From positions 1 through 51,846 of the forward strand of contig JAFIGH010000028.1 of assembly GCA_020831525.1 (NCBI GenBank): 51,846 nt of DNA, read 5' to 3'. The notes under the pieces were generated by a model that was not told the origin of the DNA, ran no database searches, and worked only from the letters and a program-made list of their open reading frames with translations. This document shows positions 1-47,398 of this stretch, one piece after another. This DNA is from Opitutales bacterium. Its GTDB lineage: Bacteria; Verrucomicrobiota; Verrucomicrobiia; Opitutales; Oceanipulchritudinaceae. Position 1 is the first letter of the stretch. Every line of letters begins with the position of its first letter. The position numbers were made by a program, and so were the translations under genes.

Positions 1-1803
1 GGGTTCGATAGAGAGGCGGAAGAAGGCGGGCTGGGTCGCGGGGGGGGGGCGGGCTTGGCGGAGTTCGAGGCCGTTGACGGTTTCGAGGGTGGTTTCGGTG
101 AGGCCGGGGCGGTGCCAGGTTTCGAGGTCGGTGGACCATTCGACGTGGTAGGCGATGTCGGGCAGGCGGGTATCGTGGTGATAACGGAAACTGGCTTGTC
201 CTCCATCCCACACGACGAAGGGCAGGCTGCCTTGGGAGGCACCGGGCTCGCGCGGGTCCATGCCGAGGGCGTATTTGAGAAGATTCGGGAGGCCGTCGCG
301 GGCCGGGCTGGCGGCGGGTTGCCGCGCGGCAGTGGTCAAGCCCTCAAAACCAAGAATCCAGGTTGTGTAGGTGGTCGGGGCGCCTGCGGGCACGGGTAGA
401 CTGGCGAAGGGTATTAGAACAGCGGATACGGGCCGACCGGCCGGGCTGTTCTGGCGGAAGGGCATGGCGGTGAGCCAAATCTCGTTGCGCGTATCCCATG
501 CCCAGCGCTCGAATTCGGGATCGGCGGCGAGAAGGTCGGTGTCATCGATGACTACGGGCGCGGTCCACTCGGTGAAAGGAGGGCGCGAGGCGGCGGCGAC
601 GGTGCGGTTGCCGAGGGCCTCTTCCTGCCATGCGACGTAGACGCGGTCGGCGATGTAGAAGCTGCGGGGCTGGGAGAGGTTGGCGCGGGAGGAGGCGGCG
701 TCCTGCCAGAACTGCGTGTAACGCGTGTCGGTGACGGAAGTGGGCCCGTGCACGGTGTCGTTTTCGTCGATCCAGAAGTGAAAGATCTGGATGTAGCCGC
801 GCTCGTCGAGGCGACGGTAAAAGCCGTGGATACGGCCTGCGCCGTCGGCCATCATATCCCATCGGTGGTCGAGCATGGAATCGCTTTCAGCGGGATCGAC
901 GAGTGTACCGAAGAACGGGGTGACCGGGGGGCTGAGGGGCGTGCCGTCGAGGCGTTGCCACTGGTTGGCGGCGGCATCGAATTTGATCACACTGAGGTCT
1001 TCATTGGTCGTCGAATTGCCGGTGATTCGGTGGGTGTAGCCGACGTAGAGGTCATCCCCGCGAAAGACGACGTCGTGCGCGACATACTGGGCAAAGATGC
1101 CGGAGTCTTGGAATAGGCGACCATCGGAGGCACGGGTGCCGGGAAAGGCGGACCAGATTTGGGCATCCGCATCGAGGACGAAGAGGGAATGCCCACTGCC
1201 GGAGCGGCGCAGGGCGAGGGTGAGACGACCGGTTGCGGGATGCTTGGAAAAGCGCCAGTAGGTGGAGTTGGTGTTGCTGCTCCAGCCGGGCAGCCCGTTG
1301 GCGGAGCGGTTGATCAGACCGCCGCTCCAGCCCTCGTGCACCGGCAGGTCGGACCGATGGTAGCGGAAGCCATCGGAACCGCCGCGCCCGTCGTAGATGA
1401 AGTGGGCATAGCCGGCTGTGTCGATGCCGACGGACATATAGCCGTGCCAGTTGGATCCGGGGGCGGGGAGGATGGTGGCATCCGGTCCGATCCGCGCCCA
1501 GAGGGACCATGCACCGGCCTCCGTCTCTTGCTTTCGCCATTGGATGACGGGCAAGCGGTCGAGTGAAATATACGCCGCTACTTGCCAGAGCGTGCCTTCC
1601 GGATCTTCGAAGGAGGCGAGGGGCTGCCGATCCTGATAAGCGTATCCGGCGTTTGTCAGGCTGCCGTCCCCGAAGCTCGGGAGGAGATCAGCATGGGTGA
1701 AAAGCCCGGCGGCGAGCGAAGACAGGAGGAGGCAACCGGAGATGAGTCCGATCAGCCATCGCCGGAATAAGGCACCCCTTCGTTGAGCTTTCTTTTCGAT
1801 CAT
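1..1803 (-). CDS. Secreted BNR-type beta-propeller protein (BNR_4-like), 3' end cut by window edge
   Basis: The frame stays open from an ATG at 1803 to base 1, giving 601 codons without a stop, so the C-terminus is missing. Residues 1-35 are a basic stretch followed by a hydrophobic segment (LIGLISGCLLLSSLAAGLF), a signal peptide or anchor. Residues about 45-480 have alternating beta segments and match the BNR_4 pattern: NWHGYMSVGIDTAGYAHF, then YWRFSKHP and RRSGSGHSLFVLD. That family includes carbohydrate-active propellers such as some polysaccharide lyases, but I cannot assign a catalytic residue. The last 100 residues visible are the shared tail of this locus: DGLPNLLKYALGMDP, then STDLETW and AFFRLSIEP. 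It is the last gene of a minus-strand series, 109 bp after the 2565-aa gene, and a 26-bp palindrome lies in that gap. Propeller call fairly sure, enzymatic role unknown. Confidence 0.72.
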   Translation of the reverse strand, partial: MIEKKAQRRGALFRRWLIGLISGCLLLSSLAAGLFTHADLLPSFGDGSLTNAGYAYQDRQPLASFEDPEGTLWQVAAYISLDRLPVIQWRKQETEAGAWSLWARIGPDATILPAPGSNWHGYMSVGIDTAGYAHFIYDGRGGSDGFRYHRSDLPVHEGWSGGLINRSANGLPGWSSNTNSTYWRFSKHPATGRLTLALRRSGSGHSLFVLDADAQIWSAFPGTRASDGRLFQDSGIFAQYVAHDVVFRGDDLYVGYTHRITGNSTTNEDLSVIKFDAAANQWQRLDGTPLSPPVTPFFGTLVDPAESDSMLDHRWDMMADGAGRIHGFYRRLDERGYIQIFHFWIDENDTVHGPTSVTDTRYTQFWQDAASSRANLSQPRSFYIADRVYVAWQEEALGNRTVAAASRPPFTEWTAPVVIDDTDLLAADPEFERWAWDTRNEIWLTAMPFRQNSPAGRPVSAVLIPFASLPVPAGAPTTYTTWILGFEGLTTAARQPAASPARDGLPNLLKYALGMDPREPGASQGSLPFVVWDGGQASFRYHHDTRLPDIAYHVEWSTDLETWHRPGLTETTLETVNGLELRQARPPPATQPAFFRLSIEP

Positions 1804-1912: not shown

Positions 1913-4900
1913 CTAGGGAAGAACTTGGATGGTGAGGCGATAGAAGGCACGCGCGGGTGCGCTGGTGGTGAGCGGGACGCGAACAGTTTCTCCTTGGCGG
2001 ACGGGATCGAGGGCGGGGGCATTGGGGGCACGGGTGAAAGCGGTGGTGTGCCCTACCGCTTCGGCCAAAGGCGACCACGTTTTGAGGTCCCCGGACATCT
2101 CCAGGATGTAGTGCAGTTCGGGGCGGTCGAGCCCGGCGGGAACGTGCAACTCGATAAAGCGGTCGGGGCCTTCATTCACCAGATCAACCGTGGCGCGGGC
2201 GGCTTCGGCAGCAGGTACCTTTGGGTCCATGCCAAGGGCGAACTTGAGGAGGTTTGGGAGACCGTCGTCGGCGGGGTCGGCGAGGTCGGCGGCGTCGCCT
2301 TCGTTGGCTGTGTCACCGAAGTGGTTGAGGCGCCATGCGGCGCGGGTGCCGGGTGCCGGCGCGTCGTCGTCTGCGGCCTCCTCCACGAGGCGCATGGCGT
2401 TTATGGAGACACGGGACGTTGACCGGTTCGACGTTTTGAGGTCGATCACCAGGGTTCCGGTTTCATCGGGCTGCACGCTCTCCCAGATCATCCATCCCTC
2501 GACGCTGTATTCATCTTCGCCGCCGTCGTCCGGGCCGATGGTCGTCCAGCGCACGCTGGTGCCGAGATTGTCGCCGGTGTGGGCGTTGAAACCCGCCACA
2601 AAACCATCCGCACCGAGCACCTCGAGGATGCCATAGTGAGCGCCATTGCGCGGAGAATCCCATGAGGAGGCGATCTCAACGGTGTAGGTGCGCTCCGGGT
2701 TGAGGTTGCGCAGCGTCAGGGTGGCCGAGCTGCTGACAAAAAGGCGGTCATTGAGAGCGACGGCGTCGGCCCATGGAGGCGAGACTTCGCGGGTGCCCCA
2801 GGCGGTTGTGCCGCTTGAATGCTGCAGGGCGCCGGAAACTTCAAGGATGAGACCGGGAATCGAGGTGCCCGTGAGAAAGTCGACGAGGTCAGTGAACTCA
2901 CTGCCCGCACCGATGGTGTTCCAATTGCCGGCAGGATTGGGGAGAGCATCGCCGAAGTCGAAAAGGGCCATGATGGTGGCATCGGCAGGCGGATCGATAA
3001 CCTCAAGGAAGGCAGGCTCGCTCGCGGTCGTGCCCACGGGATTCGTCGCTTCGAGAACATAGTTGCCGGTATCGGCCAACGCGAGGCCGGTGATCGTTAG
3101 ATGCGGTGTATCCGCTCCGGAAATCCGTTCATTGTCGAAGAGCATGACGCCGTCCCGCAGCCAGCGGTAGGCTTGAACGGGCGGCGATGCGGCCGCTGTG
3201 GCGGAGAACTCAGCGGTGGTGCCGATGAGCGCGATCAAGCCCGAGGGCTGTTCCGTGAAGATCGGCGCACTTTCGAGGGCATCGCCCTGGCTCTCGACAA
3301 GGCGCATGGCATTGATGGATACCCGCGAGTTGTTGTTGGCCGTGGTCGAGAGGAAAATGACGATCTCGCCTTCGGCATTGGGCTGCACGGCGGGCCAGAT
3401 GAGCGAGCCCTCGGCGGCACCGCTGCCGCCCCCGTCGTTGGGGCCGCGGGAGGTCCAGTGGACCTCGGTGCCCAGTTCGTCGGCGGTGAGGGCATTGAAG
3501 CCGAGTGCGGAGCCCTCGCCGCCCACCACCTCAAAGATGCCCGGGGCGGAGCCGGAAGCCCCTCCACCCGCAAAGGAGGAGGCAATCTCGACATCGTATG
3601 TTCGCGAGGGCACGAGATTGCGGAAGCGGATGGTGGCGGAGTCGCCCTGGTTGACCCACATACGGTCGTTGAGGGCATTCACATCGGCCCATTCCGGAGC
3701 AAAATCGCGCGTGCCCCAGGCTTCTGTGCTGGCGGAGGGTTGGAGACCGGCGCCGCCCGTGTTGACGATATCGATTTCGACGTCGCTGGTCACCTCGCCG
3801 TTGATGGAGTTGATGAAGGGGCCAAAGGAAGAACCGGCGGCGAGGGTGTTCCAGAAACCCGCAACGGGGGCCGGGCCGTTGTCACCGAAGTCGAGGAGGA
3901 TGGAAAGGTCGGGCACTTCCTCGACGGTGAGGACCGCGGGGTCGGTGACGGTGGTGCCGAGGGCGTTCGTGACGGCGAGGGTGTAGACGCCGCCGTCGGC
4001 GAGGGCGGTCTCGTGGATGACGAGACGGGGCGATTGCGCGCCGGAGATGCGGGGTCCGTCGGCGATCAGCTCGTCGTCAAGGTACCACTGGTAGCTCTCG
4101 ATCGCGGGGTTGCCGATGACGAGCGCGTTCAGTTCGGCAGCGGTGCTTTCGAAGACCGTGAGGTCGGCTGGATGCTCCAGCACGACCGGTGCCTGCGCGG
4201 TGGGCAGCACAGTGAGTGCGACGGTGTCGGTCGTTGTGAGGTCGCTGTCGTTGGTGGCGGTGAAGGTAATTTCGTGCACACCCATGGAGAGTTCGCTGGT
4301 GACGAGTGTCGCACCGGACCCGAGGATGCCGTCGATGTCCGAGGACCACGAGAGAAAGACGTCGTCCAGCGGTTGGCCGCCTTGCAGGGCGCTGGCGCTG
4401 AGCGTCACGGATTCGCCTACGATCAAGGAGTCGCCGTCTTCGGGCGAAATGATGGCAACAACCGGCGGGGCGTCGGCAGCTCCCGTGCGGTCGACAATCT
4501 GGAAACCGTAGATGGCGGGGTTATTGCTGCCGGAGTCCAACTCAACGGTCGTCGTCGAACCACTGAGATTGCGCCAAACGAGGACGTTGTGCCCGTCCAC
4601 CGCGTCCGCGGGGACGGAGGCCTCCGAGGGCATCCATGTGCCGCCGAAGTCATAGCCCAGTTTGCGTCCGTAGCGGACCTCATCGTTGACCTGGAACGCG
4701 TAGGCGTTGGCGTTTTCCGCTCCGGCGTAATAGAGAAGGACATTGTAGTTGTCGTAGGGAATGCCTTCGATGACATAGCGAAAGGCCCCGCCGGAGGCGC
4801 GCTGGGTCATGCGCTCGTTGCCGTCGAGCCAAACGCTCAGCTCGTTGGACACGGATGTCGTGCCCGTTCCTCCTTCGGCCGTCACGGTGATGTCGACGGG

Positions 4901-9913: not shown

Positions 9914-12900
9914 TCATTCCAGGATGGTGATGGTAAGGCGATAGAATCCGCGGGCTGGTACTTCGGGGGTAAGCGACACGCGCACCGTGTCTCCTTCGCG
10001 GTCGACCGTCGCAACGGGTGCGCCGGGCGCGGGTGTGAAGGCGGTGTTTCCGGTCGCTTCCGCGAGCGGATTCCACTCGAAGAGGTTCGTCGAATACTCA
10101 AGGATGTAAACCAATTCAGGCCGATCGAGCGCGGCGGGGATGCGCGCTTCGAGCCTTCGTTGTCCGTCCTCGTCGCGCAGGAGCACGACGGCCCTGTCGC
10201 CGGGGATCGTCGGCACGGTCGGGTCCATATCGAGGGCGAACTTGAGGAGGTTGGGGAGGCCGTCGTCGGCGGGGTTGGCGAGATCGGCCGCATCGCCCGC
10301 GTCGGCAGAGTCGCCGAAGTGGGTGAGGCGCCATGCCGCGCGGGTGCCGGGGGCGGGTTCGTCCGCCGGTTGGGGCGTCTCCATGAGGCGGGCGGCGTTG
10401 AGGGAAACGCGGGCGAGCGAGTCGGAAGCGGTGGAGAGGAGCACGTCGATGTGGCCGTCCGCGCTGGGCGTGACTTCGTGCCAGATCATCCAACCCTCGA
10501 CGGCATAGGGCGCGGTGCCTCCGTCGTTGGGGCCGCGCGAGGTCCAATAGACTTCTGTACCGAGGATTTCTTCGGTGTGGGCGTTGAAGCCCTCGACGGG
10601 ACCGTCTGCGCCGGCCACTTGGAAAATGCCCGGCTCTGCTCCGGCGGAGCCGCTGGCGGCAAACCCCGAGGCAATCTCCAAGGTGTAGGTCTTCGCGGGA
10701 TCGAGGTTGCGGAAGCGGAGCGTGGCGCTGTGCCCGCTACCGACCCACAGGCGGTCGTTGAGGACGTCGGTCGTGGCCCATTCGGGGGCCACCGCGCGGC
10801 TTCCCCATGCGGTGGTGTTCCCGGAGGTCTGGATGCCGCTGCCGCCGGTGGTGATCATGTCGATCACGACCGGGGTTGGCGTGCCATCGGCGAAATTGAC
10901 AAGGCTGCCGTGGCTGGGGGCGTTGTTGAGGGAGTTCCAGTTGCCCCCCGGGGCGGTGTGGTTGGTGCCGAAGTCGATGAAGAGGGCCAAATCGGGGAGC
11001 ACGAGGACTTCGATCTGCACGGGTTGGGTGGTGGAGGTGCCCTCATCATTCGTAACCTCAAGGGTGTAGGTGCCCTGATCTGCGGTTTGCAGGTCGGTGA
11101 TGGTGAGCACGGCGGTTTGCGCACCGGATATGCGGGCATTATCAACGACGATCCCGCCTTCCCTGAACCATTGATACCCCGTAATCAAAGGAAATCCGGC
11201 GGCTTCCGCTTCGAGGGTGACCGTGCCGCCCACGAAGGCGCTGGCGGATGACGGGTGCCGCTCAATGATGGGCGGGAGGGGAATGAGATCGTCCGTCCGT
11301 TCCAGATGAAAGGTTCTCGGGAAATGGGTGACCACGTGCGTCGCGCCTCCGTTGTGGGTGACCTCGGCGGTAAGGGCATAGTCGCCGGGCATGATCGGCT
11401 CCCAGGTCAAGGTGTGCGGTTCCGCCGCCGTGCCCGTGCCAATGAAATCGCCGTTGGCGAAGTAGACCACTTCGGTTATGTCGTCCAGATCACGCGTGTG
11501 GGCTTGGACCTCAAAGACCGTGCCTTGCAGAAAAGGACCTTCCCCGATGTTGGTGACCTCGACAAAGGGCACGCCGGGAAATTCGATCTCCTCGCCGGTC
11601 GTGTCCATGAGCCCGTCCACCGCCCGGCGGCGTTCCCAGACGGTATCCCACGATTTACCGTCGACGGAGGCAAGGAGATCGAAATCCGACCACCGGTTAT
11701 TGCTGGAAGGCATGGTCATGTTCACCCCGGTGGGAACGAAGCGTTGGTCTTCCCCCACGTCCATGTCCCATCCGCCGGGCGTGAAGTAATTGTGATGCTC
11801 CCAGCGGTTGGACGGATTCTGATCGAAGATACGCCAGACTTGGTTAGCATTCCACGTGGCGTTCAGGGTGATGCCGAGGGAGTTGTTGCTGGTCATGGGT
11901 TCCCTCGGAAAGACCGTCGAGCCGGTGCCGAAGGCAAAGAGCCCGATTGCGGGCTGGCGATAGGTCTGATGGGCGGTGAGCCCGACGAAGCGGAAATAGC
12001 GGTAGCCGGGGAAGGTGTCGGTGACGGTAACGGGCCGGGAAACCGTGTGGGTTTGTCCCGCCGACGAAGTGACGGTCAGTTCCACGGTGAAGACGCCTGC
12101 GGAGGTGAAGGCGTGGGCGACTTGCGCTCCGGTGGCGGTATGGCCGTCACCGAAATCCCATGCGTATGCGCTGATCGTCTCCTGGTGTTCGGCGACGCTT
12201 TCGTAGGCGTCGAAGTGGAGGGGCCGTCCGGTCGCTTCATGATTCCGGGAAAAGGTGAAACGCGTCGTGGGCTCAACCGAACGGGCGTGGATCTCCTGTG
12301 TGGCCGCCCGCCGGTTGCCGTCGTTGTCCTCGACAATGACCCGCAGCCAGTACGTGCCGGGTTCTTCCAGGGTGTGGGTGACGCTGGACTCCGTGCTGAT
12401 CACCTCGGCATCCTGAAACCCCGTGTCGAGCGTCCAGCCATGCAGGTAGCGGTCGCTGTAGTCGGCGATAGCCTCCTGCGATTTGAAAATCTGCCAGGTA
12501 TAACCGGCGATCATGCCGCCGTTGTTGGGTGTGGAGGCGGAGGCATCGGCGGTGAAGGTCAGGGGCACGGGGGCATCGGTGATATTGATATCGAGCACAG
12601 CATCGGGGCGCAGGGGCAGATCCGCTTTTGTCTGCGCAAACATCCATGCGATGACCTCGTGTACGTTCCAACCCAACCTGTGCGGAGAATGCCCGGTGTT
12701 TTCAACCCACCAGAAAATGTTGTCGAGGGCCCCGGCTTTTTCCAACTGGTCGAAGGCATGGCGGGAGCCGCGCGGGTTGCTGTTGTCATCGTTGGCCCCC
12801 TGAAGCGAAAACCACTTGATGTGGGCGATGTCTTCGATGGGGCCGAGCATATCCTGAAAGCCTCCGGCGGAGGGAACGGCCGCCGTGATGAGCTTCCGCT

Positions 12901-20221: not shown

Positions 20222-20417
20222 AGCTATGTATTTTTTGGTTTTTTATACTTTGTTGGGTTTGGGGAACTGCCGGTGCGTTGCCTAGGACGAGCCGGTGGTC
20301 CCGGAGAGAGTGGGTTCAAGGCTGCACTTTTGGATATGTCCTGTGTGGCACGTGAGCACCAAGGCACGGAGCCGCGGAGAGCTGGGTTTCAGAGGGGAGG
20401 TATTCAAACATATCGGG

Positions 20418-32062: not shown

Positions 32063-35000
32063 TTACGGCTCCGTCACCCGAATGCGGTAGAAGACAGGGT
32101 TGGCCTCCGGTGTCTCCACCTCGATGTGCAAATCGTTGCCGTCGCCCGTGCGGGACTTGCCCCAATCCGCCCAAGCCGCCTCATCATTGAGTGCGGTCGA
32201 CGACTGCACTTGGTAGAGGGCTCCGGGGCGGGTGCGAAACGAAAGAATGAGCCCTTCACCATGGGCGGGCGGTGCAGCGCGGACGGACGGTGGCGGCAAG
32301 CCCCCGCCAAGGGTTGCCACTTGGATCTCATTGGAAAATTCCAGAATACCGGCGTCGTTGGCCGCACCCACGCGGAAGGTGTGGGCCACGCCGGGAGAAA
32401 GATCCTCGATGAGCACCTCGGTGGTGTTGCGGCCGACGGTCAGGATCTCCTCAAACTCTCCCTCGCCGGATCTGGCCTCGATCACGAAATGCGACTCATT
32501 GGAAGCATTGTCGCGCCAGCGCAGGCCGATCTCGTTGGAACTGATGAGACCGGCTTCAAGGCGGTCCGCCGGTGCGGGCAGATCGGTCGCGGGCGATGCG
32601 GTGGTGAAGGTCGCGATGGGCGAATACGGGGAATAGCCCGCCACACTGAGCGAGCGCACACGGACTTCGTAGAACGTGTCCGGCTCGATATTGATGAAAA
32701 CGTAGCTGGTTTTCTCCGCCGCGATGCGCTGTATCTCCTTGAAGCGGTCATACGTGCTCCACCCGACGGGCGTGAGTTCGAGGGTGTGCAGGCCCTCCAT
32801 GCCGGGATCGCCGTCCCACTCCACGCGGACGACGTTTCCGGCAAGTTCGGTGACCGTTAGGTTTGTCGGTGCGGCGGGCGGTGGTCCGTAAACCGGCGAA
32901 CAATCCATGGGTCGGTAGAGCATCCCGTCCGGCACAATCTGCCAAGACATGCCCGGGCCGCTTATCCGCAGTTCCAGGACGGGCAATTGTCCGCGCGGGT
33001 AGCCGTGAATAAATTGGCAAACGAAGCGGTGCTTGCCTGCTTTCAGTCCGATCTCGCCGCGCTCCGGCCAGGCAGACCATGTCCACGTGCTGTTGTCGAT
33101 GACGACGCGGTCGTTGATGAAGAGCATGCCGTGCTTGTTGGCAAGATACTCAAAGCGATAAACCCCGTCTTCCGGAACCTCGATGTAGCCGGAGTAAATG
33201 AACGCGAAATGACCGTCACGGGGGTCAAAGTCGGGCACGGCCTGCATGAGTGGATCCATGTTAGCGACCTTGCCGTCCCGCTCAAAAACCATTTCTCCGG
33301 GATCGGCGAAATTGCCCCACCAAGAAAAGTTGCCTGTGCGCCGGTAGAGCGCATAGCAGAGTCCCGGCTCAACATCTTCGGGATCTGCGGCGGGTTCGAG
33401 AGCGAGCGGATGGGTTGTCGCCTCCGCAACCAGAGACGGTTCGGAAGCGCCGTCTTCATTGTAGGCACGCACACGGAAGCTGTACGGCATGCCCGCCTGC
33501 AAGCCGGTAACAAGGTGCGCGTCCGCTTCCGGAGCAAGATCGGCGAGCGATTGAAAGGAAGGCTCATTCTCGGCCTGCCCCTCAAGCAAGTAGCCGGAAA
33601 CCGATCCACCCACCGGTGTCCACGCGAAGCGCACTTGTGTCGCGGTGAGGGCACGCGCCGTCACATTCGTCGGCGCGTCCGGCGGTTCGGGCGTCAATGC
33701 CGCGCTGGCTACAACCGCCGTGTATGCGGAAAGCCCCGTATGGTTGAAGGCCGCCACCCGGTACTCATAGGCATTGCCTGCCTCCAACCGCATATCGCGG
33801 AAGGCTGTGCGTCCGGGAAATGTGCGCGCGACGGCCTCGAAGGGACCGCCGTTGACGCTGCGCTCGACAACGAATCCGTCCTCGTTTTGGGAATGCGACT
33901 CCCATTCCAATAGATTGCCGACGGCCGAAGCGGAAGTCAGCGTAAGGCCGGAGGGCGCGGCGGGAAGCTCGGCCGGTCCGGGTGCGTTGATAATGGCGAA
34001 ATACCCGTCTCGTGAGCTGGCTTTTTCAGGTTGCAGGGGGTTGTGGATATAGTGGCCCACGCTCCCTCCCGTGCGGCCCGCCGCCACGATGACCTCCGCC
34101 CCATTGATACGGCGGACGGCGATGGCGTTGAATCTCCCCTCGGAGAACTTCGCGGCATAGAGCCGCGTCCCCATGTCGGCACTCATGAAAAACATTGTCG
34201 CTCCGCCCGTGTAGCTCGTCCCCAAAGGATTGAAGCACTGCGTTCCTGGGGCACATTCGATTTCCGGCGGTATGGGAAATCCGGTCGACGCGCCTCCCGC
34301 GAAGTAGAGCCGCCCATCCGGGCCGACAGCTTGCCGCCCGGGATGTTCATACTGTACGCTGGAGCCCGAGCCGCCCATAATACCGGCAAATACCTGCCAG
34401 CGGTCGAGGGCACCGTCCTCGACGCCGTAACGCCCGAAGGCAAACTTCTTTCGTGTGTCCTGCCACGCCAGCGCCTCCGGCGTGTGGTAGCGGTCGCCCC
34501 CCACCGGATCGCGCCGCAGGCCGGTGTCAAAGGGATCGAAAAACAACGGATTTTCGTAGGCCTGGCCCGTGTATGTCGGAAAGAGATACAATTCTCCGTC
34601 CTGTCCGATGGCGGTAGAGTAGGGGCGCGCCATATTCCACGGATTGATCGCAATGCGGTCTTTCAGCTGAGGATCATAACCGGTGTACCGCAAGGCTCCA
34701 TTAAAGCCGAAGGCTTTGTAGAAGGGAAGGTGGTACTCACCGACGCCGAGCCACTCAATGTTGAAACCCGCCACAATGAGCATGCGGTGTTCCTCGCTCA
34801 CCGCGACATCGCGCAAGCCGCGCTGCGGGTAATACCTCTCGAACAGCAGATGACCGTCCGGATCGTAGAGGCGCACGCGGTGCGGTTGGCCGAAGTCCAT
34901 GCCGGGGTCGCCCACGACGGCGAAGAAACCTTGCTCACCCGCATCGACCTGAAGCCAGCGCGCGTCCGCGTTTTCAAACAATATCGTGTCGGCCGCCGGG

Positions 35001-35416: not shown

Positions 35417-35420
35417 AAAT

Positions 35421-38249
35421 TCAATGATTGATGGTGGGGAGACTGAAGCGGTAACGCACTCGATAGAAAACCGGCCCGTTTGAGTCGGCGCGGCGGCATT
35501 CGTAAGTCACAGTCTCGGTGAAATCCGAAGGGCCGGGACTGACCGCGACGGGCACAAGGTCCTCAAGGCCGACGCGGGTCCATGGGCCGGAGAGGTTCAC
35601 CGCTCGTTCGAACGATTGTTCCACGCCGCGCCAATGATAGCCCCGCCCCGGTCGGCCCGTGCCGCCCCGCCGCTGCGGCAGAGCGATCCGAATCCGTCCG
35701 TCTGCGCGGGATACGACCGGCGGGACGCTGCGGGGCGTCTCCGGATCGAGTCCGAAAAGGTAGGCTTCGAGCAGGGTCGTACCGTCGCCGTTGGGATCGG
35801 AGGCGGCGAGTGCCGCGACGGACGTGCCCGCCGGGTCTTCCGGATAGAGGCTATGATCCCGCGCCCATTCGAGGAAACCCGCCTCTCCGCCGGGCGGCAG
35901 GGCATTTACGGCTTCGTGAATGACGGCCCAGTGCTGCGGCTCAAAAGAGTGACCCGTTGTCGTGTTCCACTCAAGGACCACGTCCGTCTCCGCATCCGCG
36001 CCGAGAAAATCCCAAACCGGCGCAGCAGCCGTGCGCACGGCGAGAAGGCCGTTGTAATTGGCGCCATAGGACCGGTTTTCGGATAACAGTACCCGCCTCG
36101 GAGCGACTGCGGCGACGGCAAAGTGCTGATCGAAGGGGAGGCGAAAGTAGTCGTTCGGGCTGCCGTCGCGGTCGATGGCATTGTAGCGGTCGAGAAACCA
36201 GTGTGGAAACTGGTGGCGGAAAGTCGGCGCCCAACCCCATGTGCTGCGTGTCGGATGCGCCCCGCCCGTGCCCGTCTGGTGCGGGGCCGCCAAAGCCACC
36301 CGTTCGTCGAGAGCCGCCGCCCAAAGTGCCGCTTTGCCGCGGCGCGAATACCCCGTGAGAGCAATCCGGTGCGGATCGATCTCCGGAACTTGTTCAAGGT
36401 AGTCGACGACGCGCGCAAGGCCCCATGCCCATGCGGCGATGGTTTTCCAATCCCCCGTGAAACCGGACGATGCGTAGGGACCGATGAGCGCATTGGAAAA
36501 CCGGCTTCCGTCTGCCGCGAAATCGGAAACCGCCACCGTGGCGAGGGCGATACCCGCTTGCAGTGTGCCCGGAAGATCCCAGCGGTCAGCGCGGCTTCCT
36601 CCCGGTTCGATGAGTTCGTTGCCCTGTGCGTTCAAAGCCGCTATGACGGGAACCGGTTTGTCCGCGTTGTCCGGCACATAGAGATTGATAAGCAGGGGCT
36701 GCGCTCCCGGCGGGCCGTAGTCACCGCGCACGACCATCTTCACCGCAAGCCCCCCGAGGAAGTCGGGCTCGACGGAAAGTAGGGAAAACTGAGGGTCCTG
36801 CGGTGGTCCCGGCTCGGTGCCGTATTTGTAATGCCGCAGCATATCGAGAATCTCAGGGCGGCGCCGTTCAAACCAGTCCGCACTCGTCGCCAAAGCCGGG
36901 CCGGAAACATTGCCGGATTCATGATCGAAGAAGCGCAGTGGATCCGGCAGGCCCGGAAAGTCCGGATGCGATGCTGAGGCTACCGTGAGGATATACGGAA
37001 GGTCCGCCACATCCGGCCATACGCGGGGATTTGCGGAAAGGCCCTTTGGCAACGACAGGACGGCGGCGTGCAGGGCCGCCCAGTGGTAAGGTTCGTGGCG
37101 GTGGGCCGAATCCGTATCCCACTCAAGCACAACGCCTGTCTCCGCATCCGCGCCGAGAAAGTCCCAAACCGGCGCGGCGGCCGTGCGAATGGCGAGGGCG
37201 CCGTTGAAATTGGCTCCCGAAGAGCTGTTTTCCGTGAAGAAGGCCCGCCTTGGAGCAATGAGCGCGACTTGGAAATGCTGGTCAAAAGGGAGGCGCTCAT
37301 AGTCGGAGACGGACATCTCATTGAAGCCGGGGAGGTACCACCATGTGAAGGAGTTGCGGTAACCGGTGTTGTTTCCCCATCCGGGCCTGTTGGGCACCGG
37401 ACCGCCCGCGCCCGATTGATGCGGGCCGACCAGCGCGATCCGCTCGTCGAGGGCACCGGCCCACAGGGCCGCTTTTCCCCGGCGGGAAAAGCCTGTCACG
37501 GCAATGCGGTTCGGGTCGAGCGCGGGAACGGTCTCAAGGTAATCCACCATCCGGCTCAGGCCCCATGCCCACGCTCCCTGGGTGCGCCAGTTGCCCTGAA
37601 AACCGGCCTCCGCGTAGGGATCTATGAGCGCGTCGGCATACCGGTTGGCGCTGTCGGCGGCAAAATCATCGACAACCGCGGTGGCGAGGGCGATTCCCGC
37701 GCCGAGCGTGCCGGGAAGGTCCCAGCGACCGGCCCGCGGACCTCCCGGTTCAATGGCCTCGTTGCCCTGCGCATTCAACGCAGCAATCACCGGAACCGGC
37801 CCGTCCGCCGCGTTGGGCAGGTAGACGTTCATCACCATCGGACGCGATCCCGGCGGCCCGTAAACGCCGCGCACCACTTTCTTCGTTGCGGTGCCGTCGA
37901 GGTAGTCGGACTCGACGGAGAGGACGGCGAAGGTTACGTCAGTCGGCGGCGGCGGTTCATGGCCGTACATATAGTGCCGCAGCATATCGAGAATCTCGGG
38001 GCGGCGCTGATACTGCCATGCGGCCCCGTCTTGCACGGCAGCGCCCATGGGACTTCCGGCGGCATGATCAAAGAACTGCAGAGGATCGGGTAATCCGGGA
38101 AAATCCGCCGCCGCCGGTGAAGTCACTGCGGGCATGGCGGGCAGGCTTGCCGCGTCCGGCCATGCGTAGAGCGGTTCCGCGGAGGCCAGTGCCGCCGCAA
38201 GGGCTGCCGTGACGACCGCGATGCTCTGCATGCACGCGCGGGATTTCAT
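35421..38249 (-). CDS. Secreted tandem CE15-type glucuronoyl esterase (two alpha/beta-hydrolase domains)
   Basis: 942 aa, signal peptide MKSRACMQSIAVVTAALAAA. Two homologous copies of a carbohydrate esterase family 15-like domain occupy about 30-405 and 410-795. Each has its own nucleophile elbow of the CE15 type (GFSRRGKAALWAGALDER with Ser255; GYSRRGKAALWAAALDER with Ser635), followed by PHQSGAGG or PHQTGTGG, LPFDQHF, and a His-rich segment (HRHEPYHW, HSFEPQHW) carrying the likely catalytic His. CE15 enzymes cleave esters of glucuronic acid; several have been studied from the verrucomicrobium Opitutus terrae. Two apparently intact domains in one chain are unusual. The tail 815-942 is the shared module with a TSP3-like start (DPNGDGTTLLEAYLFGLDPE, end VFYRVRYRF). 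First gene of the seven-gene run. Confidence 0.87.
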   Translation of the reverse strand: MKSRACMQSIAVVTAALAAALASAEPLYAWPDAASLPAMPAVTSPAAADFPGLPDPLQFFDHAAGSPMGAAVQDGAAWQYQRRPEILDMLRHYMYGHEPPPPTDVTFAVLSVESDYLDGTATKKVVRGVYGPPGSRPMVMNVYLPNAADGPVPVIAALNAQGNEAIEPGGPRAGRWDLPGTLGAGIALATAVVDDFAADSANRYADALIDPYAEAGFQGNWRTQGAWAWGLSRMVDYLETVPALDPNRIAVTGFSRRGKAALWAGALDERIALVGPHQSGAGGPVPNRPGWGNNTGYRNSFTWWYLPGFNEMSVSDYERLPFDQHFQVALIAPRRAFFTENSSSGANFNGALAIRTAAAPVWDFLGADAETGVVLEWDTDSAHRHEPYHWAALHAAVLSLPKGLSANPRVWPDVADLPYILTVASASHPDFPGLPDPLRFFDHESGNVSGPALATSADWFERRRPEILDMLRHYKYGTEPGPPQDPQFSLLSVEPDFLGGLAVKMVVRGDYGPPGAQPLLINLYVPDNADKPVPVIAALNAQGNELIEPGGSRADRWDLPGTLQAGIALATVAVSDFAADGSRFSNALIGPYASSGFTGDWKTIAAWAWGLARVVDYLEQVPEIDPHRIALTGYSRRGKAALWAAALDERVALAAPHQTGTGGAHPTRSTWGWAPTFRHQFPHWFLDRYNAIDRDGSPNDYFRLPFDQHFAVAAVAPRRVLLSENRSYGANYNGLLAVRTAAAPVWDFLGADAETDVVLEWNTTTGHSFEPQHWAVIHEAVNALPPGGEAGFLEWARDHSLYPEDPAGTSVAALAASDPNGDGTTLLEAYLFGLDPETPRSVPPVVSRADGRIRIALPQRRGGTGRPGRGYHWRGVEQSFERAVNLSGPWTRVGLEDLVPVAVSPGPSDFTETVTYECRRADSNGPVFYRVRYRFSLPTINH

Positions 38250-38368: not shown

Positions 38369-39169
38369 TCAAACCCGGCGGCGCATCCGGAACGCCACCC
38401 CGAGCGCGAGCAGACCGAAGAGCGCGGCGTAGGCACGCGGCTCGGGGATGACGGTAATCTGCATCGCGTTGATGGATGCGCGCGAATCACCGCCGAGGGT
38501 CGTGAAATGGATCGTGATTGAGTTGCCTGCGTCCGGCATAACTTCATTCCAGACGATCCAACCTTCCACGCTGTATTCGCTCACGTCAGCATCGGGGAAA
38601 TCATTGCCGTAGTAGGCCGTGCTCCACGCGGCGTCGTCCGGGCGGGCGGGATCGTTTCCTGTCAGCAAGGTGCTGTCCAGGCCATTGTACGCGGGGACGA
38701 CTCCCTTGGGGTCGGTGATCCGCAGGTAGCCGGGCGGATCACCCGCACGGTTCAGGTTTCCCTGGCCGGTGACGGACGTCGACGAAGAAACAAGCTCAAT
38801 TGAATAGGTCAAGTTGGAATCGAGGCCCGATAGCATCACCGAGGCAGTGCTATTCGCTCCGGTGAAGAACCGGTCGTTTAGCTCATCCTGTGCGGCAGTC
38901 GCCCATCCGGGCGCTTCCAAGCGGCCTTGGAACGCATTTGCCTGATTCGAGCTGGTCCAACCGTTGAGGCTTAGGCTGATTCCGGAGGCATTCCCGTCGG
39001 TGTCGTCCAGCCCGGCATTGGAGGCGGAATTCGAGGAAATTATGTTCCAATTACCCGCCGGATCCGCAACCACATTTTGAAAATCCACCAGAATATTTTG
39101 CCCGCTCGCGAGGCCCGCGGAGAAGCCCAGCGCGAGAGCGGAGGTGAGGAGATGTTTTGTTCGTATCAT
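38369..39169 (-). CDS. PEP-CTERM surface protein with LDFG module (3)
   Basis: The frame is open to 39289, but the ATG at 39169 gives MIRTKHLLTSALALGFSAGL, the same signal peptide as the two sister genes; 266 aa. The passenger is one LDFG module: NILVDFQNVVADPAGNWN, DELNDRFF, GLDSNLTYSIELVSSS, YSVEGWIVWNEVMPD and RASINAMQI. These are the same words as in the giant proteins (VEGWMIWHEV, SLNAARL). The tail is VIPEPRAYAA, a hydrophobic helix and RRRV, a PEP-CTERM signal. It sits just upstream of the seven-gene run, on the same strand, with a 119-bp gap and no clear terminator, so read-through into the run is possible. Confidence 0.9.
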   Translation of the reverse strand: MIRTKHLLTSALALGFSAGLASGQNILVDFQNVVADPAGNWNIISSNSASNAGLDDTDGNASGISLSLNGWTSSNQANAFQGRLEAPGWATAAQDELNDRFFTGANSTASVMLSGLDSNLTYSIELVSSSTSVTGQGNLNRAGDPPGYLRITDPKGVVPAYNGLDSTLLTGNDPARPDDAAWSTAYYGNDFPDADVSEYSVEGWIVWNEVMPDAGNSITIHFTTLGGDSRASINAMQITVIPEPRAYAALFGLLALGVAFRMRRRV

Positions 39170-39363
39170 GGCTGTGTTCTTTTTGGTGTGTTTGTTTTCT
39201 GTCGTGTCTGGTTTTTGGAAAGTCCGCTGGTCGAGGATCCGAAAGGTCCGGTGAAAGGGATGCAGGGAGGGGAGTTGGGCGCTCCACAATGGGGATCCGC
39301 GCCACAGGCTTCAGAGAGATGGGTTTCTTTGCTTCCAAAACGAGGTTATCAAACCACGCCATC

Positions 39364-40650: not shown

Positions 40651-43140
40651 TTAGGGCGCACTGGTATCTTCGCCGTAGTCGAGGCGCACGCGCATGAAGA
40701 GGTCTTCGGGCGGGGACTCAAGGTCGAGGCGGGCTTTCACGTGTTCCGTGCCGTCGGCATTGGGGACGACCGTATGATCAAAGGGACCGGATTGCCAGTT
40801 CCGGAGATCTTCCGACCATTCGGGAACGTATTCGATTTCGCCGACAATGGCTGGATCGCGCTGGTAGCGTAGGTGCCTTTCGTTCGTAGTCGGCCCCTCC
40901 CCGCCGACGTCAATCCAGGGCAGCCCCGGCCGGTCGATGCCGGCCTGCGTGCCGTCGAAGAAGGCGTCGGCGGCAAGACCGAAGGCGAATTTCACCATAT
41001 TGGCCACTCCGTCGCCTGCCGGCATGTCGAGGGGACCGCGTTGGTCAGGGGGGACTTGCGGAAAGCCGTCGATCCATGCGGGAAATCTCCCGGACGGAGG
41101 CACCGCGGGACCGGACGAGACAACCTTGAGGCGGGGGCGCAGGTTCGGCTCGGGCCAGTGGCGGGAAGCGTAGGACGGGCCGTCGTTGGAGTCGCTGCGC
41201 AACATGAGAGTGAGTGAACGCTCTCCGGCGGCGACGGCAGCCTTTACCGCCGCCGTGACATCCACGGAATACGGGCCCGGACTGTCCACGGAGAATGTGC
41301 CCGCGATGTCCGACTCGCCTGAAAGGGGTTGCACAATCCCCCACGTGGAGGCGAGGCCGTCCCGTGCGTCCCATGGGTCGGCGGGCATGCGGTAGACGGT
41401 GATGGTATCTGTACCTGTGTCACGGTTGCGCGTGTTGACATGCACGTGAGCCTCGGCGGAGACGGGTTCGCCCGCCACGGCTTCGAGCGGAAAGCGGATG
41501 TAGGCCGAGCGGAAGTCCATCCAGTCGGGATACGGCCCCGTCTTCAGCTTCATGGTGGCACCGTTTATCAGGGAGCCGGCTTGATCCGTGGAGCGCTGTT
41601 GCACGGCATTCATGTCGGCGGGAATGACGATGGAGGACTCCGTGACCGTCAGTTCGATGGTCAAATCCGCGTGCAGGCCGAGCCCGTCCGTCGCGCGAAG
41701 AACAAAAGTGTCTTCGCCGAGATATCCCTCCGCTGGCTGGTAAACGAGGTCGGCGAACTCTCCGGAACTTTCAATAAAATCGAGCGTCCCGTGGGCCGGC
41801 CCGGTCTCCACCGACCACAAGAGCGAGGCCGAATCAATGTCGAGGGCGCGGTACCGCAGTAAGGCGGGTGTGTCGCGCAGGATCGAGCGGTGGTCGACGG
41901 GACCCTCGAGGATGCGCGGTGGACCGTTGAGGACGACCAGAACGGAGTCTGTCTGTGTGAAGCCAAGCGGGTCGGTAGCGCGGAACTCAATCAAGATTGG
42001 CGTGTCTTCGTCCACGGACCGGGCCGTGAAGCTGAAGCTGTCGGTCCGGCTGAGAGCTTGACCGGGGCCCATCGAGCCGCCCGGCTCACGGCTGGGGCGG
42101 ATGGCGGCATTATTATGAATTGGAATCCAGCCGTCGAAACCGTCGATGTAGCGTGCGGCGTAGCTGTGTTGGTCGGTGGATCGAAAATCGTGCGACTCCA
42201 CGCTGACCTGGTGCCAGAAGAGCTGGAGATCCGCGTCGTCGTGCTCCGCGTGGGTCGCCGTCGCGGTGAGGGTATGCGAGTCGCCGGGGTTGACAACGAT
42301 CACGCGCGGACCATCGATCTCTGCCGTCGGCGGCGGATTGTCCGGGTGCGCTTCGAGGCGCAGCATCATGTCGATGATGGCCAACTGCGCCACGTGTTGC
42401 GTGGAGTGTCCGCCGGGAGCCCAGAATGTCTCGTAGTGGGGATGCTTAAAGAGATGCTGCATCTCCATGTTCATGAAATACGTCGACGTGTAGCGCGGGT
42501 TGTCGTTTATACCCATGATGTTTAGGATGGGAACATCGCGTGCGGCGGGTATGGCTGGCTCGCCGAGGCCAACTGTCGTGGCCGAGCCGGTCCACCCGGT
42601 CGAACCTGGGGCGCTCGGTCCCATTTCAATGTCAGTCCAGCCCCCTTGGTTGGAGTCGATGTTCTGCACAAGCCGACCGCTTGGCGTGGTCACGCTGCCC
42701 GCGTTTTGCGGTGCCGCCATAAAAAGCCGGTCCGGCATCTGCTGCATGATGCGGTTGGTCATCTGCCCGCCGCGCGAAAAGCCGGTGAGCACAATGTCGT
42801 CATAAACATCGAGTCCGTGCGGCTCGGCCCGCAACTGATCGACTAGCACGGCGGCAAGGACCTCACGGTACGAATCCGCGTTGGTCACGACAACGGCGTG
42901 CACGCCGCGTTCGGTCAAGGCGTCCATGATCTCGGAATGCCGGTCGATGCCTGCCCCGGCACCGCGCATTCGGACGATCACGCGTAATGTCTCACCGGCA
43001 GGGGCGTCTTCCGGAACCCAGTAAGCCCAAGTGCTTTCGTTGTGGGTAAACTCGACGCCGTTCTGCGGCCAGCTCTGGCCATACAAAGCGGCGTAGATGA
43101 GCATCGGAAGAATACACAACAAAGTGCGGAGGGATTTCAT
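40651..43140 (-). CDS. Secreted alpha/beta-hydrolase esterase with a CBM96/DNRLRE-type module
   Basis: The frame opens at 43320, but the ATG at 43140 (MKSLRTLLCILPMLIYAALY) starts a signal peptide; 829 aa. Residues about 25-270 are an alpha/beta hydrolase: YDDIVLTGFSRGGQMTNRI with Ser near residue 122, a likely acid in NIMGINDNPRY, and His in WAPGGHSTQH. Two Ig/cadherin-like segments follow (about 275-480; EDTPILIEFRATDPLG, GEDTFVLRATDGLG). About 485-665 is a DNRLRE/CBM96-like module: QQRSTDQAGSLINGATMKLK, SAYIRFPLEA, YRMPADPWD, DVTAAVKAAVAAGERSLTLM. Such modules bind acidic polysaccharides in characterised examples. The end is the shared tail (DGVANMVKFAFG, SEDLRNWQS, LFMRVRLDY). Substrate unknown. 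Its promoter must lie in 43141-43375, where I see no clear motif. Confidence 0.82.
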   Translation of the reverse strand: MKSLRTLLCILPMLIYAALYGQSWPQNGVEFTHNESTWAYWVPEDAPAGETLRVIVRMRGAGAGIDRHSEIMDALTERGVHAVVVTNADSYREVLAAVLVDQLRAEPHGLDVYDDIVLTGFSRGGQMTNRIMQQMPDRLFMAAPQNAGSVTTPSGRLVQNIDSNQGGWTDIEMGPSAPGSTGWTGSATTVGLGEPAIPAARDVPILNIMGINDNPRYTSTYFMNMEMQHLFKHPHYETFWAPGGHSTQHVAQLAIIDMMLRLEAHPDNPPPTAEIDGPRVIVVNPGDSHTLTATATHAEHDDADLQLFWHQVSVESHDFRSTDQHSYAARYIDGFDGWIPIHNNAAIRPSREPGGSMGPGQALSRTDSFSFTARSVDEDTPILIEFRATDPLGFTQTDSVLVVLNGPPRILEGPVDHRSILRDTPALLRYRALDIDSASLLWSVETGPAHGTLDFIESSGEFADLVYQPAEGYLGEDTFVLRATDGLGLHADLTIELTVTESSIVIPADMNAVQQRSTDQAGSLINGATMKLKTGPYPDWMDFRSAYIRFPLEAVAGEPVSAEAHVHVNTRNRDTGTDTITVYRMPADPWDARDGLASTWGIVQPLSGESDIAGTFSVDSPGPYSVDVTAAVKAAVAAGERSLTLMLRSDSNDGPSYASRHWPEPNLRPRLKVVSSGPAVPPSGRFPAWIDGFPQVPPDQRGPLDMPAGDGVANMVKFAFGLAADAFFDGTQAGIDRPGLPWIDVGGEGPTTNERHLRYQRDPAIVGEIEYVPEWSEDLRNWQSGPFDHTVVPNADGTEHVKARLDLESPPEDLFMRVRLDYGEDTSAP

Positions 43141-44794: not shown

Positions 44795-47398
44795 ATGATA
44801 CCCTCCCACTTCATTCCACGATCCGGCCCCGGTGGGGTCCCGGCGCTAATCCGGACGGTGCGAAGCGTTTCGCTCGTTTTCGGTTCGCTTCTTTTCACCG
44901 GTTCCTTGGCAGCCCAGCCCACGGACAATCCGGTGGCCTCGCAGTACGTGAACAATTACCCAGTGTGGACCGACTCGGTGCGCTGGGATAACGTCATCGA
45001 CATGTCCGCCTATACTAACGGCGACAACCACTTCGAGCAGTTCGAAAACGCCCGCGACGAACTCCACGCGCAGGGCGGCGGCGTGCTCTACTATCCGGCG
45101 GGCACCTACCACTTCGACCTCCCGGACATGGGCTACGGCCCCGGCATCGGGCCGACGAGCCGCGGGCTCATGCTCAAGAGCGGTGTCGTCATCCGCGGCG
45201 CCGATCCGCTGCCCGGGCAGGACCAGGCCGTGGTGCGCGCGAGCGAGGATCCGGCCGACCCGCTCTTTGCCAACGATGTCACGCACAACCTCACGCCGCA
45301 GACCATTTTCACCTTCCCCATGCAGATGCGTGGGACGGATCCCGTGTCGGGCGACCCGAACTCCGCCGGCGAATTGCCTTCCGACTGGAACCTCATCGGC
45401 ATTACGCCCGGCGACGGTGAGGAAACCCTCGCCGACGTGACCAATGTCGGCATCGTCAACGTGAAGCTTGAAGGTGGCGTGATCTACTGGGGTTACCACA
45501 CGCCCCGCGCCGCGACGTTGAACGAGGGCCGTTGGTTCAACGGCGTATTCAAGACCGCGTGGCCCGCATTTGCTCCCCCGGAAGAAACTTGGGCCGGCCA
45601 CGCCCCCACAGGCGAGCACTACATGCACTCCATCCACGGCTCGGAAGGCTGGCACTCGGATGTATCGGCGGGCAGCGGCCGTCTCGCCATGAACGTGAAG
45701 ATTCAGGACGGTGCCACCTTTAACGACATGTTCTATCCGGACCGGAGGGGGAATACGGATATGGGCGAAGATTCATTCAGCCACTACCGCTTCACCGGTC
45801 GCCTCACCGCGCACGGCGGCGACATCTTCATCGCCAACAACGTCCTCGCCAAGCCGACGAAAAACTTCGTCTATCGCGAGATCCAGAACGCCGGTATGCG
45901 CAACGTCCTTTTCGATTACGCCAACCACATCGGTATCGACGTGAACAAGAGCAACTACGGAGGCAACCAGGACAACCCCACGGTCTTTACGCCGGGCAGC
46001 GGTTATTACGCCGAGAATGTCATTGTGCGGGACAACTGGGTCTTCAACCGCGGCAATAAGAACTTCGAGATCTCCGGCATGTGGGCACAGGTGGTCAACA
46101 ACCACGCGGAGAAATATTACATCGGCAACACCATCTACGCGGGCTACATCACCAACCCGCAGGTCTTCGGGTTTGATCCCGGGGATCCGGAGTTCAATCC
46201 CATGGCAACGCTGGACCTCGGCGGCCACACCTTCGACGGTTGGGGCTGGCGGACAGGCACAAACTCCTCCGATTACATGAACCGCGGCTTCGACTTCGGC
46301 GGGCGTAACCTCTGGGTACACCGCAACTCAGTCGTCAATCCCGGCTCCATCGGCAACGACGGCGAGGGACTCATCGGGCAAGAACACAACCGTGTCGGCG
46401 TTTACTCGTGGGCATGGTCCGACAACCAATCCGGTCGTGTTTCCAAGGGTCCCGGCACTTTAGGCGAGGGCGACGGAAAGGGATGGATCGGTCCGTATAA
46501 CATGCAGCAGTTCGGCTTTTTATCGCTCCGCAACGGCACGCAGGTCTCGTCCTCCGTGGGTACCATTGCCTCCAGTCGATCCGGTAGTCCGGACACCACG
46601 TTCAACTACTTGCTCGATACCTCTGTCATCGGCACCACTCTCAGCGGTCGGTCCACCGACGGCATTACCCGGCTCGATCCGGATCATCCAAATTACGAGC
46701 GCGACCTCGGGCCCGAGGAGCCGGTCGACATCATCATCATCGACGATGTCACCGAACACGCCGGCCCCGTCAGCGCGCCGGTGGATGTGAGCGCCCAGCT
46801 CCTTGACGACGGCAGTGTGTTTGTGAGCTGGACGGATACGGCGGACAACGAAGTCGGCTTCCGCGTCGAACGCCGTGTCGGCGGAGGCGCATGGCAGACC
46901 ATCGCCTACCGCCCGCTTTCCAACATGCTTGCGACCCTCACGGATGTGCAGGATCCCCTCGACATGAACCGCGCCCGCACCCAATCGCGCGTGGAAAATC
47001 CGATCATGATCGCCGAACTCAATCCCCAGGCGTGGCGCGACTACACTGCTCCGACAAACGGCGGAGAGACCATCGAGTACCGCGTCGTGGCCATCAATGC
47101 CATGGACGACGACTCCACCGGCATCAGTGGAGTCGCCGCCCTCGGCGACGCGCCCGGCCCGGTCACTCCGGACCTCCCGCGCGCCGTCCACATTGCCATG
47201 GTCGGCGGTGCCGTGGAGCTGAACTTCGGATCGCAGTCCGGGAGGGTCTACCAACTTCAGCGCTCCTACGACTTGGAGAGCTGGGAAGACGTCGGCGCGC
47301 CGATGAGCGGCGACGGCTCCGTCCTCACTGCCGAAGATAACGATCCCGGCGCGGAAGACGGTGTCGTCTTCTACCGCATAGGAGTGGCCGAAGAATAA
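44795..47398 (+). CDS. Secreted pectate-lyase-like right-handed beta-helix protein (2)
   Basis: 867 aa; signal peptide SVSLVFGSLLFTGSLAAQ after a longer basic N-region. The helix domain (about 45-620) is a paralog of that at 27020-29428: RWDNVIDMSAYTNG, QFENARDELHAQGGGVLYYP, GLMLKSGVVIRGAD, DIFIANNVLAKPTKNFVYRE, NVIVRDNWVFNRGNKNFEIS. A fibronectin-III-like domain follows (about 660-790, VFVSWTDTADNEVGFRVERR) and then the tail (GRVYQLQRSYDLESWEDVG, VFYRIGVAEE), which lacks the NLLKFALG part. Likely a polysaccharide lyase or hydrolase; not proven. Unlike its paralog it is a single gene, divergent from the XylR-type regulator, with its own terminator at 47435. Confidence 0.82.
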   Translation: MIPSHFIPRSGPGGVPALIRTVRSVSLVFGSLLFTGSLAAQPTDNPVASQYVNNYPVWTDSVRWDNVIDMSAYTNGDNHFEQFENARDELHAQGGGVLYYPAGTYHFDLPDMGYGPGIGPTSRGLMLKSGVVIRGADPLPGQDQAVVRASEDPADPLFANDVTHNLTPQTIFTFPMQMRGTDPVSGDPNSAGELPSDWNLIGITPGDGEETLADVTNVGIVNVKLEGGVIYWGYHTPRAATLNEGRWFNGVFKTAWPAFAPPEETWAGHAPTGEHYMHSIHGSEGWHSDVSAGSGRLAMNVKIQDGATFNDMFYPDRRGNTDMGEDSFSHYRFTGRLTAHGGDIFIANNVLAKPTKNFVYREIQNAGMRNVLFDYANHIGIDVNKSNYGGNQDNPTVFTPGSGYYAENVIVRDNWVFNRGNKNFEISGMWAQVVNNHAEKYYIGNTIYAGYITNPQVFGFDPGDPEFNPMATLDLGGHTFDGWGWRTGTNSSDYMNRGFDFGGRNLWVHRNSVVNPGSIGNDGEGLIGQEHNRVGVYSWAWSDNQSGRVSKGPGTLGEGDGKGWIGPYNMQQFGFLSLRNGTQVSSSVGTIASSRSGSPDTTFNYLLDTSVIGTTLSGRSTDGITRLDPDHPNYERDLGPEEPVDIIIIDDVTEHAGPVSAPVDVSAQLLDDGSVFVSWTDTADNEVGFRVERRVGGGAWQTIAYRPLSNMLATLTDVQDPLDMNRARTQSRVENPIMIAELNPQAWRDYTAPTNGGETIEYRVVAINAMDDDSTGISGVAALGDAPGPVTPDLPRAVHIAMVGGAVELNFGSQSGRVYQLQRSYDLESWEDVGAPMSGDGSVLTAEDNDPGAEDGVVFYRIGVAEE

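Follow-up and report, generated by a model that had tools for sequence, protein, structure and literature searches.

In the type 9 secretion system (T9SS), cargo ends in a C-terminal domain (CTD) that PMC11285876 presents as an Ig-like sandwich of seven strands, and a review restricts such CTDs to Bacteroidota (PMC10202324). In type 2 secretion (T2SS), loops 3 and 5 of the Fn3 domain of PelI and Pel3 are reported as secretion determinants, and PelI is reported to bind GspC and GspD (PMC7949064). Another C-terminal end, PEP-CTERM (TIGR02595), belongs to the exosortase route (PF09721) and consists of a PEP motif, a transmembrane (TM) helix and a basic end. Dockerins usually occur, as the module described here does, as one copy per enzyme at the C-terminus. 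How large enzymes and adhesins leave verrucomicrobial cells or are retained on them is poorly known, and an end-domain common to such proteins would be a concrete handle on the question.

We analysed a window of 51,846 nucleotides, which is one contig (C52) of the 5.3-Mb genome (G000, 184 contigs) of an Opitutales bacterium. Many of its proteins end in a folded module whose family has no name in the libraries searched and is both abundant and phylum-wide; the kind to which it belongs, C-terminal targeting domains, is already known.

One terminal module in two forms

The original prediction was that thirteen unrelated proteins of the window share one small end module. Using models that contain no window copy (123 long rows, 121 of them distinct, and 44 short rows), we found a shared C-terminal module in 12 of the 12 proteins listed with it, in a long form at 1, 1913, 9914, 13797, 27020, 29465, 35421 and 40651 (47-107 bits) and in a short form at 21939, 24319, 32063 and 44795 (60-75 bits), the module ending 1-7 residues from the last residue (Table 1). 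This test is not fully independent because the outside copies came from searches seeded with the window tails. The same models matched 0 of the 8 other window proteins (E <1) and 0 of 2,000 shuffled 150-residue tails. The gene at 1 is cut by the contig edge, as had been noticed, yet the module is present; a close relative (L098) continues for 24 residues past it.

Other parts of that prediction need correction. The thirteenth member, the SUMF1-like protein at 23197, has an N-terminal stretch (SEDGRTW...FFRL) that resembles the module by eye, but neither the long nor the short model detects it. The strict motif SxDLxxW is kept in six of the 12 window proteins, with STNLFEW (two), SADIETW, STTLEVGSW, STALNDEAAW and SFERAVNLSGPW in the others, and the proposed FYRL, FFRL or FYRV ending is replaced by FYRI in two proteins, FLRL in one and FMRV in one. 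Furthermore, while the carriers are diverse, some of their bodies are related: homology extends over the full length of 27020 and 44795 (E 2e-94), 13797 and 32063 have about 500 N-terminal residues in common (E 8e-21), and one domain precedes the tail in each of 1913, 9914 and 13797. The tails at 9920-10345 and 13803-14228, which belong to neighbouring genes whose proteins differ in length and start, are 90% identical, which suggests recent copying of the 3' end between the genes at 9914 and 13797. Elsewhere in the window, the protein at 35421-38249 holds two CE15-type (GCE_fung) stretches within one chain.

Table 1. Module copies and related features of the window (bits are scores of the window-free models)
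Feature	Position	Strand	Evidence
Long module at the end of a BNR_4 protein; gene truncated at the contig edge	4..372	-	106.8 bits
Long module, end of 2583-aa PKD-containing protein	1916..2347	-	92.9 bits
Long module, end of 1209-aa protein (PKD, Ig, domain X)	9920..10345	-	81.5 bits; AlphaFold pLDDT 91
Long module, end of 1696-aa protein	13803..14228	-	81.1 bits
Two PEP-CTERM genes (19367-20221, 20668-21450), body = domain X	19367..21450	-	PEP-CTERM match
Short module, end of 402-aa protein	21951..22172	-	70.8 bits
Look-alike, N-terminus of SUMF1-like protein, unconfirmed copy	24058..24219	-	motif by eye; no model match
Short module, end of PQQ-propeller-type protein	24322..24555	-	59.6 bits
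Long module, end of 802-aa protein homologous to 44795	27026..27394	-	76.1 bits
Long module, end of 858-aa protein	29471..29836	-	74.3 bits
Short module, end of fn3/PA14 protein	32066..32290	-	60.4 bits; AlphaFold pLDDT 84.6
Long module, divergent, two-GCE_fung (CE15-type) protein, residues 790-935 of 942	35445..35882	-	46.9 bits
Third domain X gene, PEP-CTERM-like tail, outside the 50 matches	38369..39289	-	by eye
Long module, end of CBM96-containing protein	40675..41085	-	79.9 bits
Short module, end of 27020 homologue	47171..47395	+	74.9 bits

The long form, about 135 aa, consists of an N-terminal helical cap, a loop of the type DPDGDGxPNLLEYA and a sandwich that ends in FLRLxV. The short form is a sandwich without the cap and ends in FYR[VIL], and the two profiles are related (hhalign 97.8%, E 1.3e-12). 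In the AlphaFold model of the 9914 tail (pLDDT 91) the long form has two helices and seven strands, with an EF-hand-like loop held in the cap and an Ig-like sandwich following it; the model of the 32063 tail (pLDDT 84.6) is a smaller sandwich with five strands listed.

Conservation across 131 long tails (129 distinct) is highest at W5 (94%), G31 (89%), N34 (93%), S82 (90%), W88 (97%), F123 (92%) and R125 (93%). The loop had been likened to a TSP3-type calcium-binding stretch, and a loop does stand before the sandwich, but its ligands are eroded: in the same tails D is found at loop positions 1, 3 and 5 in 62, 37 and 71%, G at position 6 in 89%, N at position 9 in 93% and E at position 12 in 33%. 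Conserved calcium binding is doubtful because of this erosion, and we rejected it as the core function. The TSP3 repeat models PF18884 and PF02412 gave no match over the gathering score, each touching one of 65 members (E 0.058 and 0.092). With dockerin and TSP3 EF-hand loops the module shares a DxDGDGxxN loop, placed before the sandwich; unlike a dockerin it has a single eroded loop, and no cohesin passes the cut-off in this genome (best E 0.04), so that a dockerin-cohesin pair was rejected. Six of 64 loci (L064, L076, L079, L088, L093 and L094) are missing from the alignment of 65 rows on which the structure and the phylum search are based, and two tails of genome G088 are counted double in the tail-identity, conservation and window-free sets, for which the distinct numbers are given separately.

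No Pfam or NCBIfam model passes its cut-off on 65 long and 19 short members, in agreement with the expectation that the module is no named domain. The best Pfam match of the long members is DUF3999 (E 0.0014; five match at E 0.1) and the best NCBIfam match has E 0.024, while the best Pfam match of the short members is F5/8 type C (E 0.017; 3 of 19), a likeness that stays weak throughout (E 0.017-0.073). The Fn3 and Ig families of Pfam are not among the matches of these members at E 0.1. A PDB sequence search gave no convincing relative, its best match (E 0.0079) being an unlike enzyme, and Foldseek with the long form gave generic Ig V-type matches (Z at most 7.7). Literature search listings contained no account of such a tail for Verrucomicrobiota or Akkermansia and no description of a dockerin- or cohesin-like one in Verrucomicrobiota, which is not proof of absence; what PMC3482391 offers on the point concerns other systems.

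Position, carriers and spread

With seven window tails as queries we found at least 71 long-form matches in this genome at E 1e-3 (150 of 174 candidates scored); the 35421 protein was recognised as the eighth long-form member of the window after that search. At E 0.01 the short form was matched 27 times, which adds about 25 open reading frames (ORFs) and brings the genome to about 97 module ORFs, some of the short ones weak. In the short list, L240 duplicates the ORF of long-form L066, and L229 and L236 fall in a single ORF. Across 240 genomes and 131 genera sampled from the phylum, the long form is present in 126 genomes and 82 genera and the short form in 114 genomes and 71 genera (E 1e-3). 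A plasmid search with one tail gave no match. One very long open frame, of 6792 aa, has the module at its C-terminus (G166:C1:3020517-3020897).

The predicted restriction to the C-terminus proved near-absolute, on proteins that mostly have a signal peptide. In this genome 67 of 71 long matches end within 26 residues of the C-terminus, a count that takes in L093 with just the first half of the module, and the short form is C-terminal in 24 of 27 (at most 45 residues after the match). In other genomes the short form is C-terminal in 28 of 30 copies and the long form in 62 of 62 distinct copies drawn from the best-scoring matches of 12 genomes, followed by 0-6 residues in 61 of them and by 24 in one. 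As a control from the same genome, LamG domain copies lie within 50 residues of the end in 2 of 22 cases and PKD copies in 0 of 30 (30 of 45 PKD matches examined). Many control ORFs themselves end in the module. With those excluded, LamG is terminal in 2 of 10 ORFs and PKD in 0 of 3, so that the LamG figure is the fair comparison and PKD says little.

The exceptions, four long and three short copies in this genome, are N-terminal or internal. In L088 the long module stands directly behind the signal peptide, and its body is homologous to that of L080, which has the module at its C-terminus (E 3e-52); judged by this homology, L088 is a true relocation of the module. In L064, L079 and L094 an internal long module precedes parts that by eye are kelch-like, SUMF1-like and GH30-like, and Pfam finds one kelch carrier and one FGE-sulfatase carrier. 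The part before the module in L064 matches the tail-ended L057 (E 5e-146), that in L079 the tail-ended L061 (E 2e-68) and that in L094 the PEP-CTERM protein L152 (E 1.5e-25). Because these preceding parts match tailed or PEP-CTERM proteins, all three copies look as if a further part had been fused on behind a protein that was already finished.

By a home-made rule, 57 of 69 carriers start with a signal peptide-like stretch, whereas none of 134 internal stretches passes; of the 12 carriers that fail the rule, some start hydrophobic by eye, so that 57 may be a lower bound. A TM-like segment follows the signal peptide-like start in 2 of 69 carriers, and 3 of 69 have a lipobox-like stretch. The bodies include CotH, pectate lyase-like, subtilase, RCC1, PKD, Ig and LamG types among others, in open frames of 250 to 2657 aa.

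Comparison with PEP-CTERM and with secretion domains

A search for PEP-CTERM gave 50 matches in the genome at E 0.01. By position none of the 50 ORFs is a module ORF, 30 of them having also been scanned with the module model, and TIGR02595 gave no match among module members at E 0.1; the module is thus absent from the PEP-CTERM ORFs found, as predicted. The two ends are exchanged on homologous bodies of the same genome. Domain X, about 210 aa, is the whole body of the PEP-CTERM proteins at 19367-20221 and 20668-21450 and of the protein at 38369-39289, whose tail is PEP-CTERM-like by eye, and also stands directly before the long module in 1913 (two copies), 9914 and 13797, and a second exchange of this kind relates L152 to the N-terminal part of L094. 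Further swaps are those of long for short form (27020 and 44795) and of C-terminal for N-terminal placement (L080 and L088). While the module resembles PEP-CTERM in being exchanged in this way and in being found mostly in the same genomes, it differs in being a folded stretch of about 70-140 aa without PEP motif, TM helix or basic end.

Of the 50 PEP-CTERM genes, 14 have a module ORF within 1.5 kb, where uniform placement would give 5.7 (p 0.001); with the window contig removed the count is 12 of 47 (p 0.006). This adjacency is about 2.4 times expectation, with six gaps of 59-437 bp, and may be explained by ordinary clustering of genes for secreted proteins. Exosortase PF09721 has four matches in G000 and is present in 122 of 126 long-tail genomes (Fisher p 2e-18, uncorrected for kinship). 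The four without a match are G071, G113, G208 and G226; such absences are unsafe, because G113, which is Akkermansia muciniphila MucT, was missed at E 1e-3 despite the EpsH (Amuc_1470) reported for it in PMC3048395. Dependence of the module on exosortase was dropped as something that genome co-occurrence does not let one read.

The analogy to T9SS CTDs, part of the original prediction, holds for the architecture and not for membership. Alike are the C-terminal Ig-like sandwich of seven strands (TIGR04183/PF18962 type A) and its occurrence on varied Sec-exported proteins. Unlike a CTD, the long form begins with an additional helical cap, the module is also found in N-terminal or internal position, and no T9SS was demonstrated in the phylum here. 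TIGR04183 matches 0 of 65 module members at E 0.1 and nothing in this genome, on which ground T9SS membership was rejected; the scattered matches in 19 of 240 genomes mean little, because the control matched in Deinobacterium too. Within the window, one weak TIGR04183 match to 9914 (E 0.037, under the cut-off) falls inside an Ig domain, outside the tail. SprA matched in 0 of 240 genomes, yet 14 positive controls were also without a match, and the absence of T9SS CTD structures among the long-form Foldseek matches listed excludes nothing. A weak T9SS-CTD-like match was seen in an open frame of 20466 aa (G015:C142:25762-25911).

The short-form model had PelI (Z 7.3, rmsd 2.4-2.5, 71 aligned) and Pel3 (Z 6.8 and 6.5) as its top VIA matches; with Z below 8 the likeness may be one of common arrangement only. 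In plain Foldseek, Pel3 ranked 19th (E 0.16). The module may resemble the PelI/Pel3 Fn3 domain in its sandwich and, like it, is terminal on secreted enzymes; they differ in that the latter is N-terminal in PelI, is confined to one enzyme family and shows no sequence relation to the module. A GspD secretin is found in G000 with a best E of 3.4e-95, in MucT with 1.2e-30 and over the cut-off in only 62 of 240 genomes. GspD-like secretins occur in 235 of 240 genomes, the other five all being tail-free; near universal in the sample, they do not discriminate.

A candidate surface tag and its Akkermansia carriers

We see about an even chance that the module is a tag for surface sorting or attachment that is read once Sec has exported the protein and is separate from the exosortase route. 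The Sec signal peptide would carry the protein to the periplasm, where the Ig/Fn3-like end-domain would fold and be held by a putative envelope partner; the partner would then send large and diverse enzymes and adhesins to the outer surface or fasten them there, with crossing of the outer membrane as a presumed step. Such a route would run beside PEP-CTERM/exosortase and take the place of PEP-CTERM on a given protein. The proposal is based on what is observed: the module in its two forms, its position, its carriers, its spread in the phylum, the lack of any doubly tagged protein and the end swaps. PelI and Pel3 offer a precedent in which an Fn3-like terminal domain acts as the secretion signal, one that tolerates N-terminal placement. 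A strict T9SS-like C-terminal export signal fits less well, because there is an N-terminal copy and no such machinery was found in a search whose positive controls were silent too. The role first suggested, in export, surface attachment or assembly, agrees with the position, the signal peptides and the absence from the PEP-CTERM proteins found but does not extend to a strict export signal, given the N-terminal and internal copies; its three options are inseparable by sequence. It is possible, although rather unlikely, that Verrucomicrobiota have an outer-membrane secretion or surface-attachment system of their own, parallel to exosortase, for which the module would be the cargo signal on dozens of proteins, two candidate mucin-degrading enzymes of A. 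muciniphila among them.

Several results count against a tag. No partner for it was found, and N-terminal and internal copies exist. There is no general sign that the tails are tuned to a single receptor in each genome: in G000 the median tail identity is 24.6% among unrelated proteins and 25.7% between genera, and genomes G045, G088 and G137 have a slight within-genome excess. Only two genomes of the genus Akkermansia are uniform, with medians of 58% (G021) and 53% (G033) among unrelated bodies against 27% to other genera, and per-genome receptor tuning was therefore rejected as a general property. The wide occurrence of the Ig/Fn3-like fold and the weak F5/8C likeness of the short form also weigh against a tag, and the latter suits a binding module. 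That the module is an accessory domain for polysaccharide or extracellular matrix, terminal by chance, is a tentative alternative which we hold to be on the unlikely side: many carriers are polysaccharide-active or adhesive and displaced copies are tolerated, whereas LamG, an accessory domain of the same genome, rarely ends module-free ORFs, the RCC1, subtilase and sortilin-like carriers are not polysaccharide-active by name, and the module was never found on a PEP-CTERM ORF. In the predicted structure, moreover, the most conserved W, S, W, F and R lie at or beside strands and thus look structural.

This conservation, mainly at core-type positions with loops free to vary, would suit a passive cap that stabilises the ends of long multidomain proteins without any partner, as would the lack of genome-specific tails in G000. 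Such a cap leaves unexplained the exchange with the PEP-CTERM signal on homologous bodies and the end position on open frames of 250 to 2657 aa, and we regard it as improbable. A divergent cargo signal of a true type 9 system, for which the shared architecture of the modelled sandwich on signal-peptide cargo would speak, is very improbable in view of the TIGR04183 results and of the limits of CTDs given in the review (PMC10202324).

Contigs of the gut bacterium A. muciniphila also bear the tail. At E 1e-3 the long form is found twice in MucT, at the ends of open frames of 1474 and 1277 aa that each run one residue past the match. Without the tails, one of these carriers aligns with L127 at 82% identity over 1299 residues and the other with L130 at 59% over 1111, and Pfam finds sulfatase, PA14 and BACON domains in L127 and GH18, LamG and BACON domains in L130. 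According to PMC3048395, two MucT proteins have a BACON domain at the C-terminus, the sulfatase Amuc_0953 and the glycosyl hydrolase Amuc_2164; because the body types match this pair, the two MucT carriers are very probably Amuc_0953 and Amuc_2164. The relevant passage of PMC3048395 notes the odd C-terminal BACON domain of both, without mention of a domain after it. As enzymes, Amuc_2164 is listed in PMC12834350 and PMC9415379 and Amuc_0953 in PMC12834350, with nothing on localisation in the portions concerned, and neither is named in the main texts of the A. muciniphila papers checked for localisation. Sec, Tat and part of a T2SS are reported for the species (PMC6538878). With two long-form carriers in MucT, only a small set of constructs would be needed.

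Three further observations concern Akkermansia. The tail there comes after BACON domains (L344 and L345; homologues L127, L128, L129, L130, L133 and L134). In the genus of MucT (g27), a GspD-like secretin reaches E 2e-27 or better in 10 of 10 tail-bearing genomes, and 8 of 10 tail-free genomes (all but G096 and G228) have GspD-like hits only at E 6e-22 or worse, a pattern that may be clade structure. Finally, the weak matches at ranks 15 and 21 of the short-form Foldseek list are to the linker/ALT region of the A. muciniphila glycopeptidase Amuc_1438 (8dek and 8df2; E 0.15-0.17, 20% identity).
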